A model generated the notes under the pieces. The model did no database searches and was not told the DNA's origin. It saw only the letters and a program-made list of their open reading frames with translations. From Clostridia bacterium (GTDB taxonomy: Bacteria > Bacillota > Peptococcia > Peptococcales > BICA1-8): a stretch of 39,607 nucleotides of DNA. Shown in pieces: positions 3,957-23,187 of the stretch; within the stretch, counting starts at the first letter, position 1, and every line of letters begins with the position of its first letter. The stretch covers positions 1 to 39,607 of the forward strand of contig JASKKI010000016.1 in NCBI GenBank assembly GCA_030154225.1. Direction: 5' to 3'. The position numbers were made by a program, and so were the translations under genes.

Positions 3957-4724
3957 TTATCGATTTCTTTCATAAATTATTCTCAAACCTTCCAGAGTTA
4001 AGAGCTTGTCTACTTTATCAATAGTTTCCGTATCTTTTGCTATCAACTCTGCAATACCACCGGTAGCAATTACTTTAATATCACCAAAGCCTAATTCTCT
4101 CTTCATTCTTTTTACTATTCCATCAACTAATCCACAGTATCCATAAATAATACCCGATTGTATTGCATTAACAGTATTTTTCGCTATAACTTTTTTAGGG
4201 GTAATAAGCTCTACTTTGGGAAGCTTAGCTGTTTTCTGAAATAATGCTTCAGTAGCAATATTTATTCCTGGTGTAATAGAACCACCCAAGTATTCTCCTT
4301 TAGCAGAAATACAACAGAAGGTTGTTGCAGTACCAAAATCAACAATAATTAACGGTCCCCCATATTTTTCAAAACCAGCTACAGCATTCACAATCCTATC
4401 GGCACCAACTTCTCTGGGATTTTCATATAAAATGGCCACTCCTGTTTTAATACCAGGACCTACAATTAAAGGTTTTATATTAAAATATTTTCTTGCCATT
4501 TCTTCTAATGCTCCTATAATAGGTGGAACAACGGAAGAGAAAATAATATCAGTAACATCTTGAGGATTAACTTTATGGTAAAAAAATAAATTTTGTACAA
4601 GCATAGCGTATTCATCTGCTGTTTTTTGTTTATCAGTTGCTATCCTCCAATAAGTTATAAGTTCTTTATCTTTATATACACCTATAACCATATTGGAATT
4701 GCCTATATCAAAGGCTAAGAGCAT
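3957..4724 (-). CDS. coaX: Type III pantothenate kinase
   Basis: A 255-residue CoaX of the ASKHA fold, catalysing the first step of coenzyme A synthesis (pantothenate to 4'-phosphopantothenate, ATP-dependent, not inhibited by CoA). Visible motifs are FDIGNSN at residues 5-11, GADRIVNA at 107-114 with the catalytic-type aspartate D109, and VDFGTATT at 128-135. The gene begins 18 bases after the PanT-like transporter gene, so uptake and activation of the vitamin appear to be coexpressed. Confidence 0.95.
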
Positions 4725-4742: not shown

Positions 4743-5276
4743 CTAGTACGTCACCCGGTATTTCGTAAAGATTCTAACCAAAATAACAGTAATAATTGCT
4801 GCTAGTATGACTTCGAAAATAGCATGGCTTACTACAACCATATAAGCAACCTGAACCGGTATATATCCTATTAATACAGCCAAACCTAAAAAACCAATAG
4901 TATTTGTTAGTGTCCCTACAATAGCAGAAATAACTGAGGCTACTGTGACATTACGTTTAAATACCCAATAAGCATAGTAAGATGTAATACCAATTAATAT
5001 TCTGGGTAAAATCCTAACAAAAGGGTCAGCAGGTACTGCACCTGTGGGACTCAAAAAACTATACAAACCAAAAATAAGACCTGTGAAGGCACCAACAACC
5101 GGACCCTCTAAAATAGCAGCTAGGATTACAGGTATGTGCATTATAGTTGCCTTACCAACAGGAGTAGGTACAGGAATAAAACCCAATCCTGTGGCACCTA
5201 AAACTATAGCAACTCCACCTAACATCCCGGCAATTACCATCTTTCGTGTTCCTACTCTAATATTTACATTTTCCAT
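4743..5276 (-). CDS. ECF transporter S component, probably pantothenate-specific (PanT-like)
   Basis: A 177-residue integral membrane protein with about six hydrophobic helices; the conserved early segment (AGMLGGVAIVLGATGLGFIP) is typical of ECF substrate-binding S components. Such proteins need the shared EcfA/A'/T energising module, which is not in this window. Pantothenate is inferred as substrate because coaX follows immediately on the same strand. The open frame can start at 5294, but that codon overlaps the ribosome site; ATG 5276 follows GGAGGGTTAAAG properly. The fold is certain, the substrate is contextual. Confidence 0.82.
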   Translation of the reverse strand: MENVNIRVGTRKMVIAGMLGGVAIVLGATGLGFIPVPTPVGKATIMHIPVILAAILEGPVVGAFTGLIFGLYSFLSPTGAVPADPFVRILPRILIGITSYYAYWVFKRNVTVASVISAIVGTLTNTIGFLGLAVLIGYIPVQVAYMVVVSHAIFEVILAAIITVILVRIFTKYRVTY

Positions 5277-5360
5277 CTTTAACCCTCCAATCATTATACA
5301 AGTATCTGGTAAATCTAGACAAGTAATGATGTAAACACAACCAACAACTGGTAACTAAAT

Positions 5361-5418: not shown

Positions 5419-5994
5419 TCAATTATATTGTAGACTGGTTACCTGTTTAGTTACTCTTTCGAATAATGTTTTTCCAACAATAGCTGCCAAGAGTGCCTTA
5501 ATTAAATCCAGGCCCATGTATAAACTCATCATGGTAATTATCTGCATAAAGGTAAAGGGTTTACCCAGGTAAAAATTAAATACTAAATACATCCAAGGTA
5601 ATCCAATTACATACATGACAATTGTACTTGTAAGCATTGCCGATAAAAATGTACCCCAACCCGGCTTTTCTTTTTTATGGACTAATAAACCAGCAATATA
5701 TGCACCTACAGCAAAACTTATTAAAAATCCGAAAGTAGGTTTTAGTATATAAGTAAATCCACCATAGGGAGGTGAAGCAAATACCGGAACCCCAATAAGT
5801 CCTACCAGAATATAAACCACAATACTTAGTGCACCCAATCGCGGTCCAATAATTACTCCTGCCAACATACTTAATAAGGGAAGTAAACTAAAGGGTACAA
5901 TATCAGGCGGCCAGATTTTTGAAATATAGGCACCTACAGCCATCAGGGCAGCAAAAAATGCTACTAACACCATATCACGAACTGATAATTTCAC
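5419..5994 (-). CDS. bioY: Biotin transporter S component BioY
   Basis: A 191-residue membrane protein with six predicted helices. It shows BioY signatures: the early PF(S)LLPLLSMLAGVIIGPRLG region, VPVFASPPYGGFTYILKPTFGFL, and a late DLIKALLAA segment. It captures biotin and works with the ECF module or possibly alone. The start is GTG at 5994, eight bases after GGAGG; the longer TTG start at 6009 overlaps the ribosome site. A BirA operator overlaps its promoter, which supports the biotin assignment independently of homology. It is monocistronic, closed by a terminator. Confidence 0.93.
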   Translation of the reverse strand: MKLSVRDMVLVAFFAALMAVGAYISKIWPPDIVPFSLLPLLSMLAGVIIGPRLGALSIVVYILVGLIGVPVFASPPYGGFTYILKPTFGFLISFAVGAYIAGLLVHKKEKPGWGTFLSAMLTSTIVMYVIGLPWMYLVFNFYLGKPFTFMQIITMMSLYMGLDLIKALLAAIVGKTLFERVTKQVTSLQYN

Positions 5995-6041
5995 TTTTTC
6001 ACCCTCCAAAAAAAATTTAGTAACTGTTTTTCGCTACCCTG

Positions 6042-6183: not shown

Positions 6184-6348
6184 ATTTATTTTCTTCATTT
6201 AACCTTCCGTCCCGGTCCAATCTGGATCCAAGCGGTCCCACATTTATTAAGTACTATTAATATTCATACAGGGCAGATTGCTCCCGTTGAATGCGAGTTA
6301 ATTCTATCATTACTTTGTCCCTAAAGCAAGCACCATTTTATATCATTA

Positions 6349-19301: not shown

Positions 19302-19655
19302 TTATTGCTTAGCTTCTTTAGCTCGCAGGATTACAATCTCACCTGGTTTAATTAAACCCAATTTTTCCCTGGCAATTTTTTCAATAGCCTCAGGAGTTTG
19401 TATATATTCTAATTCTTCCAATAGTTTTTTATTCTCCTCTTCCAGTTTTACCAATTTACTTTGCAAAACTCTAATCTCCTTTTTCAGTTGGTGGGCTTGA
19501 TAAAAATTATGGGAAAAGGAAAATATTAAATAAACTAAAAAGGCCAGAAACAACCACTTAGATAATTTCCTAGGACTAATACGTCTTTTAACCTTTCTTA
19601 CTTTTTCTACTTGAGCTGTATGGGGATATTTATATTTTTTTTGAGGAACTGCCAT
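19302..19655 (-). CDS. divIC: Septum formation initiator (DivIC/FtsB family)
   Basis: A 117-residue bitopic membrane protein of the cell-division complex, partner of DivIB and FtsL. A basic cytoplasmic N-terminus (KKYKYPHTAQVEKVRKVKRR) precedes one membrane helix (WLFLAFLVYLIFSF, about 34-47). A leucine/glutamate coiled coil follows (about 60-90), and the typical TPEAIEKIAREKLGLIKPGE box ends it. The usual upstream neighbour yabQ is displaced by the glnHPQ insertion. No other gene is visible in 19656-19861. Confidence 0.93.
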   Translation of the reverse strand: MAVPQKKYKYPHTAQVEKVRKVKRRISPRKLSKWLFLAFLVYLIFSFSHNFYQAHQLKKEIRVLQSKLVKLEEENKKLLEELEYIQTPEAIEKIAREKLGLIKPGEIVILRAKEAKQ

Positions 19656-19861
19656 TATTCATCATCCTCCATAACTCCTAACCTCTTAATTCTATTTTCA
19701 TATCTATTCACCAGTTTTTGGTAATTATCCCCACGATTATCTATAATTTGTGGACAAATTTATTACAATATTTGTATTATCTAAGTTCTACTCCAATAAT
19801 GAAATTCCTTTTTTTAAATCTTTATCTTCAAATCAATTAATATGCTTGTTTCTACAAAATT

Positions 19862-19938
19862 ATAAGAAAAACCGACTTCGTCGGTCTTTCAGAACCTACA
19901 ATATCTACAGTACCACAGGAAATAAAAGATTAAGATTG
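19862..19938. repeat. Interspersed repeat, copy B (77 bp), ending at the glnQ stop
   Basis: Second copy of the repeat at 17526. Its palindrome ACCGAC-TTC-GTCGGT (19871-19885), followed on the minus strand by TTTTTC, can serve as the terminator of glnHPQ. The element ends two bases before the glnQ stop codon. Confidence 0.85.
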
Positions 19939-19939
19939 T

Positions 19940-20665
19940 TTACCAGATTTGGCTAAGAAAGTCTTGTGTCCTCTGCATTTTCGGCTCATCAAATATTTTA
20001 TTAGGACAGCCCTCTTCTACAATAATTCCATCATCCATATAAATGACCCGATCAGCTACTTCCCGGGCAAAACCCATTTCATGGGTAACAACCACCATAG
20101 TCATTCCTTCTTTTGCTAAATCTTTTATTACTGATAAAACCTCACCCACCAATTCAGGATCAAGAGCAGAAGTAGGTTCATCAAAAAGAATTACAGAAGG
20201 TTCCATGGCCAATGCTCTAGCTATAGCCACCCTTTGTTTTTGCCCGCCAGAAAGCATACTGGGATAACTATTTTCTTTTTCCAGCAAACCAACTTTCTCC
20301 AGATAATATCTGCCCATTTTTATTGCATCTTTTTTAGGTATCCCTTTCACTTGGGTCGGACCTTCAATAACATTTTGTAAAACGGTCATATGGGGAAAAA
20401 GATTAAAATGTTGAAAAACCATTCCTACATGAATTCTCATCTCATTAATCATTTTTTCATTATTTTTTTCAATAACTTTTCCATCAATTTCAACAGTTCC
20501 CTTTTGAAATTTCTCCAGAAAGTTGATACATCTTAGTAAAGTACTTTTACCCGAACCACTTGCCCCTATTATTACTACCACTTCCCTTGGATTTACATCC
20601 AAATTTATACCTTTCAACACATGTAAATTACCAAACCATTTCTCCAGCTCTCTTATTTTAATCAT
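19940..20665 (-). CDS. glnQ: Polar amino-acid ABC transporter ATP-binding protein
   Basis: A 241-residue ATPase of the polar amino acid uptake family (GlnQ/HisP). Walker [10 protein letters not shown] is at 34-42, followed by a Q-loop ([12 protein letters not shown]), the signature [10 protein letters not shown], Walker [14 protein letters not shown] and the H-loop VVTHEMGF. It powers uptake with the permease 11 bases upstream and the binding protein of the same operon. Substrate specificity is set by GlnH and cannot be fixed from the ATPase. Confidence 0.95.
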
Positions 20666-20676
20666 TTTCTCCCTCC

Positions 20677-21336
20677 TTACCGGCTACCGCTTACAGCCAA
20701 TTTGGTTTCAATTTTATTGAAAAGCCAGGTAAAAATACTTGTATAAAAGAGATAGAACATTGCTGCGATTGTTAACATTTCCATCATCCTATAGTTTGAT
20801 GAAGCCAGCTGTTGAGATTTCAATAATAACTCATTAATGGTTATAGCACTAGCTAACGAAGAATCTTTTAAAGCGATAATAAATTGGTTACCTAAAGGTG
20901 GAATTGCCCTTTTAAAAGCTTGCGGTAATATAATCCGACGCATAGCTTTATAGTAAGTCATCCCTAAAGAACGGGCTGCCTCCATCTGTCCTACGGCTAT
21001 TGATTGGATTGCACCTCTAAATATTTCAGCAATATAGGCACCGTTATGAATACCCAAACCTAAAGTAGCAGAAGTAAAAGCTTTAAAACCAAATACACTG
21101 CGCAAACCAAAATATATAAATAATAGTTGAAGTAAAAGAGGAGTTCCCCTGATTATATAAATATAAATTTTAGCCGGTATATTAAATAACGAATTTTCAG
21201 AAATCCGTGAAAAGGATGTTAATAATCCTAAAACAACTCCTAGCAAAATACCAACGACGGTCACCTGTATTGTCATCCAAGCAGCAGGTAAAAAGAACGG
21301 GAAATATTTGACTATAGCAGAAAAATCATAATACAT
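20677..21336 (-). CDS. glnP: Polar amino-acid ABC transporter permease
   Basis: A 219-residue membrane permease of the His/Glu/Gln/Arg family. About five transmembrane helices are visible. The cytoplasmic EAA loop reads [20 protein letters not shown] in the middle of the protein and docks on GlnQ. A single permease gene implies a homodimer. It starts at ATG after AAAGGAG. Confidence 0.93.
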
Positions 21337-21384
21337 CTCCTACACTCCTTTCAGTCATATCTCTAACCAGCATCTTCTAAAATA

Positions 21385-21401
21385 TTAGAAACGGTTTCTA
21401 A
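21385..21401. promoter_or_regulatory. Perfect 17-base palindrome before glnP
   Basis: TTAGAAAC-G-GTTTCTAA lies between glnH and glnP. It could be an RNA hairpin or an operator half-site pair; no assigned factor. Confidence 0.4.
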
Positions 21402-21431
21402 ATCTGTTCCCCATTTCTGCAAAACATATAA

Positions 21432-21454
21432 GCACAGCAGCTAGGCTGCTGTGC
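21432..21454 (-). terminator. Attenuating hairpin between glnH and glnP
   Basis: Perfect 10-bp stem GCACAGCAGC with GCTGCTGTGC and loop TAG, without a strong T run. Such hairpins commonly let the binding protein be made in excess over the permease. Confidence 0.7.
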
Positions 21455-21461
21455 AAAAAAA

Positions 21462-22253
21462 TTATTTCTTGGTAATATCTAAATTTAGCCATTTTTTGCT
21501 TAGTTTTGTTAAAGTCCCATCTTCATGCATTTCTTTTAAGATTTTATTAACAGCTTCCCTTAAAGAATCGTCATCTTGCCTAAAAGCAACTGCAATATCT
21601 TCACTACGTAATGGGTTTCCTAGCAATTCAATGTCAAATTTACCTTTATTCATGGCATTAACACCCACTACCCTATCAGTAATAACAGCATCTACAACAC
21701 CACTATCAAGTTCCATTAATGTCTGGTTATCATCTTTATATAGTTTAATCTCACCTGCCCCTAATTTCTTAGCATCATTTTCAAAGGTTGTTCCTGTTAC
21801 CAAACCAATAATTTTTCCATTTAAATCTTCAGGTTTTGTGAATTTGCTTCCTTTTTTAACAACCAATTGGGCTCCAGAATAATAATAGGGTGTTGAAAAA
21901 TCAACAACTTCTAATCTTTCTTTTGTAATAGCCATACTTCCCAGGATACCATCATAAGCACCAGATCTTAAACCTTCTATAATACCACTCCATTCGGTAG
22001 TAACTGGTTTAAAGTCCACACCTAATCTTTTGGCTACCTCTTTAGAGACATCTACATCAAAACCAACCAATTCATTTTTGTCATTGTAAAAGTTAAAGGG
22101 TGGATAACCTCCACTCATAGCAAAACTAATTTCTCCTGCTTTTTTCACTCTCGTTAAAGCATCTTCTTTTTTTTGCCCACATCCGGCCAAGATTAAGGTC
22201 AGAGCAAGTAAAATAATTAATCCCAGAGTTAACCAACGATTATTTTTAAACAC
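21462..22253 (-). CDS. glnH: Amino-acid ABC transporter substrate-binding lipoprotein
   Basis: A 263-residue extracellular solute-binding protein family 3 member. The signal peptide ends in the lipobox LILAGC with the lipidated cysteine at C25. The mature part shows the family landmarks GGYPPFNFYNDKNELVGFDV and EVAKRLG, then LRSGAYDGILGSMAITKER and LVTGTTFENDAKK, with a closing basic helix WLNLDITKK. The Arg in SMAITKER-type lobes binds the ligand carboxylate. It starts at GTG after GGGGG. The transcript begins at a distant promoter and passes through the structured leader at 22366-22634. Confidence 0.93.
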   Translation of the reverse strand: MFKNNRWLTLGLIILLALTLILAGCGQKKEDALTRVKKAGEISFAMSGGYPPFNFYNDKNELVGFDVDVSKEVAKRLGVDFKPVTTEWSGIIEGLRSGAYDGILGSMAITKERLEVVDFSTPYYYSGAQLVVKKGSKFTKPEDLNGKIIGLVTGTTFENDAKKLGAGEIKLYKDDNQTLMELDSGVVDAVITDRVVGVNAMNKGKFDIELLGNPLRSEDIAVAFRQDDDSLREAVNKILKEMHEDGTLTKLSKKWLNLDITKK

Positions 22254-22365
22254 TTATTTTTTCCCCCTAATAAATTTATTTAAAAGATACATTATTTACA
22301 AATTATTGATGAATCTACTAGACGACGAAAACACCTCCCCTATACTGAAAGTTAGAAATTAAAAC

Positions 22366-22634
22366 AAAAAACTCTAACCCTATCCATTTCTTCGGATAGA
22401 GTTAGAGTACTTGGATTTCGCCTCTCGACTCACCCTAAACCACATGTTTTCATGTAGTCTACCTTAGGTCCATCTGAACCTAAAGAAGTCCCAGCTCTAT
22501 AAAAGGGTTTTTCGGCACAAGTTTCGGATTAAGCTTCAAATTTCTATCCTTTTCAGTTCGAATTTAGCCTGCAATAGGCATGCTAAACCTTACCGAAGAA
22601 CCTACTACCTCGAACCTACTTCACACTCAAATTT
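22366..22634 (-). ncRNA. Structured leader RNA of the glnHPQ operon, class unknown
   Basis: About 270 nt from a predicted start near 22634 to a strong terminator. Helices seen: GUUCGA (22610-22615) with UCGAAC (22556-22561), enclosing UUUAGC/GCUAAA (22587-22582 / 22568-22563); a 10-bp hairpin CUUUAGGUUC-AGAU-GGACCUAAGG; an 11-bp hairpin UAGACUACAUG-AAAA-CAUGUGGUUUA; and the terminator CTCTAACTCTATCC / GGATAGGGTTAGAG (22394-22407 / 22372-22385) followed by T6. UUCUUC (22600-22595) and GGAUAG (22549-22544) can jointly pair with CUAUCCGAAGAA (22399-22388) of the terminator arm and loop, a candidate antiterminator. I find no T-box, SAM, lysine, cobalamin, c-di-AMP or glycine signature. A stand-alone RNA such as 6S remains possible. 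Confidence 0.6.
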
Positions 22635-22640
22635 AATAAA

Positions 22641-22669
22641 ATTATAGCAATAAATACCAATACTGTCAA
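22641..22669 (-). promoter_or_regulatory. Consensus sigma-A promoter of the leader RNA / glnHPQ
   Basis: A perfect TTGACA (22664-22669) and perfect TATAAT (22641-22646) are 17 bases apart. It ends just before the yabQ stop (22675). It is the strongest promoter seen in the window. Confidence 0.92.
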
Positions 22670-22674
22670 CAACC

Positions 22675-23187
22675 TCATATTTTATCTTTAGGTTGTCTGT
22701 TTTTAAACCCCTTTACTATTTTTTTAAAACCCGCCAAAACTTTTCTATATACTTTTTTTGCCAAATTTATACACGAGACAAAACCCGAAAACAGTAAGCC
22801 TAATGGTATGACAAAAACTTTAAAAATTATTCTAAGTGGCCAAATAATTACAATCCAGGTAAAATTGAGTAATTTTTTAATATAAATGAAAATTAGTCTG
22901 ATAAACTTTTGGGCCTTCTTAGTCAGATATTTAATATAGATATAATATCCCAATGCTATTCCGATGAATACATAAATCCTTATTTCTCCCCAGTTACCCA
23001 CCAATAACAAGATGAAAACCAAACAAGTCATTATTATCCAGAAAATTATGTCACCTATAAATGTTCCGATTTTTCGAGGCCTCCATAACCCTCTAAAAAC
23101 ACGGTAAATATCAAAAAGAAAACCGGCTAAAAAGCCGATACCGACAGTTACGATAAAAGCAAATAATTGATCATATATAGATTCCAT
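22675..23187 (-). CDS. yabQ: Spore cortex biosynthesis protein YabQ
   Basis: A 170-residue membrane protein of the YabQ family, needed for spore cortex formation in Bacillus. The N-terminus IGFLAGFLFDIYRVFRG at about 18-34 is the family signature; four to five hydrophobic segments follow, and the tail is strongly basic (KKIVKGFKNRQPKDKI). It follows yabP by 10 bases. In most relatives divIC comes next; here the leader RNA promoter begins within its last codons. Confidence 0.88.
   Translation of the reverse strand: MESIYDQLFAFIVTVGIGFLAGFLFDIYRVFRGLWRPRKIGTFIGDIIFWIIMTCLVFILLLVGNWGEIRIYVFIGIALGYYIYIKYLTKKAQKFIRLIFIYIKKLLNFTWIVIIWPLRIIFKVFVIPLGLLFSGFVSCINLAKKVYRKVLAGFKKIVKGFKNRQPKDKI

Follow-up and report, generated by a model that had tools for sequence, protein, structure and literature searches.

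Upstream of the glnHPQ-type amino-acid transporter genes in the window, the whole stretch of 39,607 nucleotides that was analysed, lies a long RNA with its own promoter and terminator, and the question is what this RNA is and what it controls. The original prediction, made from the letters of the window, described a riboswitch-like leader of no known class and left room for a free small RNA. We consider it probable that the RNA at 22634-22364 (minus strand) represents an uncatalogued class of cis-acting leaders, most likely a riboswitch class, which controls the uptake or synthesis of osmoprotectants by transcription attenuation. The reading is based on a fold that is conserved and supported by covariation, on a terminator that shares a strand with helix P3 and on the association with one functional class of genes. 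The connection to osmolytes is revealed only by the relatives of the RNA.

Results

Promoter, transcript and terminator

The minus strand from 22669 to 22361 comprises a promoter, an RNA of about 270 nt and a strong intrinsic terminator (Table 1). The promoter had been called a perfect sigma-A-type promoter and indeed agrees with the consensus at 12 of 12 positions (TTGACA-17-TGcTATAAT); TTGACA..TATAAT is found in the equivalent position in the closest relative (genome G004). The high degree of structure expected for the transcript was confirmed by a minimum free energy of −86 kcal/mol versus a shuffle mean of −65 kcal/mol (z = −4.7), with 0 of 200 shuffles equally low. A terminator is present ahead of glnHPQ as proposed, with the stem being 15–16 bp long instead of the 14 bp given originally, and the distance from the U-tract to the GTG start codon of glnH at 22253 is ~107 nt, in good agreement with the ~110 bases originally stated.

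The RNA and the glnHPQ cassette are located between yabQ-type and divIC-type genes in the window (19302-23187), in G004 and at locus L092. In the other loci of the set L032, L184, L188, L189 and L092, divIC-type genes are at least found downstream of it. This position within a sporulation/division cluster seems to be ancient. Elsewhere in the window, a pan motif RNA (RF01749, 53.6 bits) is encoded at 6203-6290 on the minus strand; according to translations read by eye only, it is followed by ECF-transporter substrate component-like genes at 5419-6009 (BioY-like) and 4743-5294 and by a coaX-type pantothenate kinase gene at 3957-4724.

Table 1 Features of the leader RNA and of the genes behind it; positions are those of the window.
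Feature	Position	Strand	Remarks
Promoter	22641..22669	minus	TTGACA 22669-22664, 17 nt, TATAAT 22646-22641, TG before -10
Conserved 5' segment GUGAAGUA	22617..22624	minus	near-invariant in relatives
P1 5' strand GGUUCGAG	22609..22616	minus	strand-swap test
P2 (P2a, 2x2 loop, P2b, P2c hairpin)	22552..22597	minus	6-2-8-1 geometry recurs
P2a UUCGGU/ACUGAA	within 22552..22597	minus	6 bp
P2b GGUUUAGC/GCUAAA(U)UC	within 22552..22597	minus	
P1 3' strand CUUGUGCC	22514..22521	minus	strand-swap test
Conserved GAAAAAYC	22513-22506	minus	after P1 3' strand
P3 5' strand AUAGAG-C-UGGG-ACUU	22486..22500	minus	closes four-way junction; antiterminator strand
Pb hairpin UAGGUUC/GGACCUA	22465..22482	minus	covariation
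Pc hairpin UAGACUACAU/AUGUGGUUUA	22436..22461	minus	covariation at 8-10 of 10 pairs
Pd hairpin GGGU-GA-GUC/GGC-GAA-AUCC	22413..22435	minus	conserved GA/GAA internal loop
P3 3' strand AAGU-A-CUCUA-A-CUCUAU	22396..22412	minus	terminator 5' arm
Intrinsic terminator stem-loop	22371..22408	minus	15-16 bp stem
Terminator U-tract	22371-22361	minus	
glnH-type amino-acid ABC transporter substrate-binding lipoprotein	21462..22253	minus	first gene controlled; family level only
glnP-type permease	20677..21336	minus	
glnQ-type ATP-binding protein	19940..20665	minus	from translation

Relatives of the RNA

A blastn search in 60 relatives yielded four clear homologues (G004, G054 and two copies in G055), that of G004 with 76% identity and the same synteny as in the window. 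The covariance models that had been suggested as a check could be built from such relatives. R1, a model of the 3' half constructed from 7 sequences, matched in 30 of 398 genomes of the phylum and recovered both G055a and G055b, which had been left out of its construction. R3 was based on 35 sequences and included the P3 pairs; it matched in 31 of 398 genomes, gaining G203 and G375 and losing one false positive in a coding sequence. At least 28 of the 31 genomes are credible carriers of the RNA; among the 31, the match in G068 is probably false and that in G152 truncated. The members are spread over about twenty genera, and several genomes contain two copies, each ahead of a different osmolyte operon.

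A loose DNA pattern scan added the Bacillota MAG members L043, L059, L092, L093, L103 and L151, and model R2, applied to the pattern matches, identified six true members among the 118 loci listed, all in Bacillota MAGs. With matches that were mostly due to chance and only six true members among those listed, the pattern search is hardly informative on other phyla; the systematic search covered the genomes of this one phylum. The plasmid collection contained no match to the RNA. Two weak matches were dismissed, namely L208 (G173), which is situated inside a coding gene and disappears with R3, and L209 (G068), which precedes a phosphoribosyltransferase gene. L209 shares GAACUGGGGCUU and GCACUCUAACUCUAU with the RNA family at 658-753; it is probably a chance match and possibly a degenerate relative. 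L207 (G152), located before an OpuC-type gene, is a possible truncated member and was left out of the count.

Conserved fold

Covariation is present in all helices of the RNA family, with permutation statistics that are inflated by kinship among the sequences. The strands of P1 pair with −9.1 kcal/mol in their own sequence versus −4.4 kcal/mol in cross-sequence swaps, and 0 of 10000 permutations were as good. P1 encloses P2, whose geometry is fixed: 6 bp, a 2x2 GA/AA loop, 8 bp, an A.G mismatch and a variable hairpin. For the 22 members fitting this geometry, the swap tests of P2a and P2b gave 0 of 20000 each, with z-values of −6.5 and −10.1, respectively. The 2x2 loop is GA/AA in most other members and reversed in the window and in G004 (L032), where AA forms the 5' side and GA the 3' side.

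In the 3' hairpins Pb, Pc and Pd, standard pairs occupy 95.3% of the cells in an alignment of 37 sequences that was fitted to those same pairs, and both sides have changed at 21 of the 24 pairs. The corresponding values were 82.6% and 10 double-change pairs in shuffles and 30–48% paired cells after sliding, and none of 500 shuffles was as good. The leader is a conserved complex structure backed by covariation, a hallmark of riboswitches. A further pairing of UUUAGGGUG with CACUCUAA was rejected (z = 0.1, covariation no better than in swaps); the bases of both segments already belong to Pc and Pd.

P3 and the terminator

Helix P3 closes the junction from which Pb, Pc and Pd emanate. Its inner part is paired in 97.6% of cells, with compensatory changes from G-C to A-U and from C-G to U-A, and this value is not biased by the alignment because P3 was absent from the alignment's model. 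In the outer part, own pairs beat swapped pairs, with 53 of 20000 permutations doing as well; the covariation is modest there since one arm is rich in purines and the other in pyrimidines. Of 54 windows along the RNA, outer P3 nevertheless pairs best with the terminator arm, whether judged by energy or by z. When folding is predicted without the 3' arm of the terminator, the P3 strands pair with each other in 33 of 34 members (mean of 9.3 expected strand pairs); for L201, the junction is not predicted even then. Compensating variants are found in L194, with GAGGCUGGGG opposite CUCUACCCUC, and in L195, with AUAGAACUGUGG opposite CUCUAAUUCUAU.

The 3' strand of P3 doubles as the terminator's 5' arm. 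Junction and terminator are therefore mutually exclusive, and the double role of the terminator arm explains its conservation in sequence. By prediction and covariation, the expression platform is thus excluded by a helix of the putative aptamer itself, as in riboswitches. In the ablA members L035, L200 and L212, a second helix competes with the terminator, whose stem there includes part of the Pd 3' strand (ACCCGGGC...GCCCGGGU).

The conserved complex fold together with a mutually exclusive antiterminator agrees with the riboswitch-like logic that had been anticipated for this leader, but the antiterminator is not the one that was proposed. In the original prediction, the terminator arm and loop are sequestered jointly by UUCUUC and GGAUAG, one on either side of a hairpin. 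The complementarity as such exists in the window, where UUCUUC (22600-22595) and GGAUAG (22549-22544) match the 12 bases of CUAUCCGAAGAA (22399-22388); shuffling of the upstream RNA gave some such match in 79 of 5000 cases (1.6%). When conservation of these bases was checked as suggested, an equivalent of the pairing was found in 0 of 33 relatives, and neither CUAUCC nor GAAGAA occurs in the terminator of any of them. Moreover, UUCUUC overlaps a conserved strand of P2a. We regard a regulatory role of this alternative fold as hardly credible and refuted as a conserved feature; the separate, conserved antiterminator is P3.

Genes behind the RNA

All 38 of 38 well-supported members examined are followed in the same direction by osmoprotectant-type genes. 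The first of these encode GlnHPQ-type amino-acid ABC transporters (16 members), AblA/KamA-type aminomutases with AblB next in most cases (10 members), ProV-led transporters of betaine, proline or choline (ProVWX, 8 members), BCCT (betaine) carriers (2 members), an ectoine transporter whose EhuB scores above the NCBIfam cut-off (1 member) and an OpuC-type operon with a binding protein closest to OsmF (1 member). AblA and AblB make the osmolyte N-acetyl-beta-lysine, and at L203 both lysine 2,3-aminomutase and AblB score above the NCBIfam cut-off; assignments that were not scored against NCBIfam models come from reading translations. The members found last, in G375 (BCCT carrier) and G203 (aminomutase), fit the pattern, which was in effect a blind test. 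The occurrence of a single functional class of genes in cis in 38 of 38 cases supports the view of a riboswitch-like leader. This count has a weak link in the GlnHPQ-type transporters, the commonest target, whose role in osmolyte uptake is presumptive. The GlnH-type binding protein lies below every NCBIfam cut-off and is assigned at the family level only. Glutamine and glutamate serve as osmolytes in some bacteria (PMC2412884).

Discussion

Proposed mechanism and signal

Riboswitches in which a helix of the aptamer directly blocks the terminator are usually ON switches. Judging from its anatomy, the candidate switch described here is probably of the ON type as well: binding of a ligand would stabilise the four-way junction of P3, Pb, Pc and Pd, in which P3 would hold the terminator arm so that the polymerase reads through. 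Due to the fact that the target genes handle different solutes, a general osmotic cue appears likelier as the signal than a single osmolyte, and the best candidates for this cue would be the monovalent cations K+ and Na+ and the ionic strength.

The RNA could also be an alternative class of c-di-AMP riboswitch, with high c-di-AMP, as a sign that osmotic stress is absent, turning the osmolyte genes off. The gene set is the same as that under c-di-AMP control, and in G249 the established c-di-AMP riboswitch, RF00379, takes the place ahead of ablA and of a ProV-type gene that the new RNA occupies in relatives. Diadenylate cyclase was found in 23 of 25 RNA-bearing genomes searched, among them the genome of the window (G000), and RF00379 is missing from 14 of the 25. 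However, RF00379 coexists with the RNA in the other 11 of these 25 genomes, and control by c-di-AMP calls for an OFF switch, whereas the anatomy points to one that binding turns ON. Furthermore, G058, G141 and G203 (94–98% completeness) have the RNA before ablA-type genes at L204, L206 and L250, and no diadenylate cyclase domain (PF02457) was detected in them. These three genomes, all of one family, make c-di-AMP less likely as the ligand, though the argument has limited weight because their RNA members are divergent. Taken as a whole, we judge a c-di-AMP riboswitch to be unlikely.

We rate slightly lower still the chance that the RNA is the binding site of a regulatory protein acting as antiterminator or attenuator and not the aptamer of a ligand. 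The mutual exclusion of terminator and antiterminator would look identical in that case. Protein-controlled leaders such as the PyrR or LicT sites are, however, typically short and simple, whereas in the RNA the conserved structure comprises several helices over about 200 nt and many of the unpaired positions are invariant, and no regulator gene is consistently linked to it. Highly improbable is a free, 6S-like small RNA that is encoded upstream of glnHPQ by chance, as the original prediction had allowed. A short terminated RNA is to be expected from the promoter and the strong terminator of the leader, but all 38 members lie in cis before osmoprotectant-type genes of several unrelated families, the two copies in several genomes each precede a different osmolyte operon and Rfam gives no 6S match. 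The idea of a free RNA is left without support since the place before osmolyte genes is kept while the genes themselves change.

Given the objections to c-di-AMP and the absence of the Na+-I riboswitch from 25 of 26 RNA-bearing genomes, we favour, with moderate confidence, ionic strength or a monovalent cation as the signal for a putative ligand-binding leader. In its most specific form, our hypothesis is that of a riboswitch class of ~200 nt with a four-way junction closed by the antiterminator P3. It would directly sense intracellular K+ (alternatively Na+ or the ionic strength) and switch on transporters and synthases of several chemically unrelated osmoprotectants, also in bacteria that lack c-di-AMP; this we put forward tentatively, as a serious possibility.

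Riboswitch candidates of this size that combine clean covariation with coherent targets have become rare, and our knowledge of how osmotic stress is sensed for gene control in bacteria is incomplete. If our reading holds true, an RNA governing several osmoprotectant systems in many families would offer a direct handle on osmotic sensing. Its reach would include bacteria without a detectable c-di-AMP synthase, and the RNA might itself be the sensor of ionic strength or K+. The covariance models, the set of members and a switch helix defined well enough for mutation are provided by this study.

Comparison with known RNA classes

In agreement with the lack of a known RNA signature noted originally, the Rfam search suggested as a check gave no credible match. 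With Rfam 15, the RNA of the window had no match at the gathering thresholds and none but noise at E<10, and 20 members searched at permissive thresholds returned only nearby T-boxes and hairpin noise of miRNA models on terminators. No covariance-model match of the window RNA to RF00379, RF03071, 6S or RF00230 was obtained. A description of the RNA was found nowhere in the searched literature; a 2017 catalogue of 224 motifs was outside its scope, but Rfam contains most motifs of this kind.

T-box leaders (RF00230) resemble the RNA in being large transcriptional leaders with terminator and antiterminator in anaerobic Gram-positive-type bacteria, but RF00230 does not match the new RNA. True T-boxes occur near two members in the related genomes G100 and G295 (L159:2335-2686 and L158:2991-3097), and their detection indicates that the sensitivity of the T-box search was adequate.

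The c-di-AMP riboswitch (ydaO-yuaA, RF00379) shares the kinds of target genes; in contrast, its fold is another one, it matches no member even at permissive thresholds and it is absent from G000. In G249 (L238, L242) and G225 (L219), RF00379 is found before ablA, before a ProV-type gene and before a betaine-type binding protein with proV. RF00379 and the new RNA thus fill equivalent positions in different genomes. The Na+-I riboswitch (DUF1646 motif, RF03071) is associated with osmotic-stress and ablA-type genes and acts as an ON-type switch by transcription termination (PMC9337991). The new RNA is similar to it in its osmotic-stress and ablA-type targets, in the proposed control by termination and in the ON type suggested by its anatomy. 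RF03071 differs in that it is a two-stem motif of 55 positions without a match at the RNA; only 1 of 26 RNA-bearing genomes contains it, elsewhere in the genome, and G000 has none.

Two candidate motifs can be compared by their published descriptions only. The proX motif of Spiribacter, with 17 representatives, is described as controlling translation through occlusion of the ribosome-binding site (PMC8632094). Like the new RNA, it precedes transporter genes, in its case for glycine betaine/proline betaine, whereas the new RNA is a transcriptional leader of ~260 nt in another phylum. The opuB motif of Enterobacteriaceae overlaps the Shine-Dalgarno sequence, and its ligand is reported to be connected with shikimate/aromatic metabolism (PMC11109978); it is likewise a complex RNA ahead of a compatible-solute-type ABC transporter gene and differs in taxon and mechanism. 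We place the RNA as a putative new class among the riboswitch-like transcriptional leaders, set apart from proX and opuB by the descriptions of these motifs.
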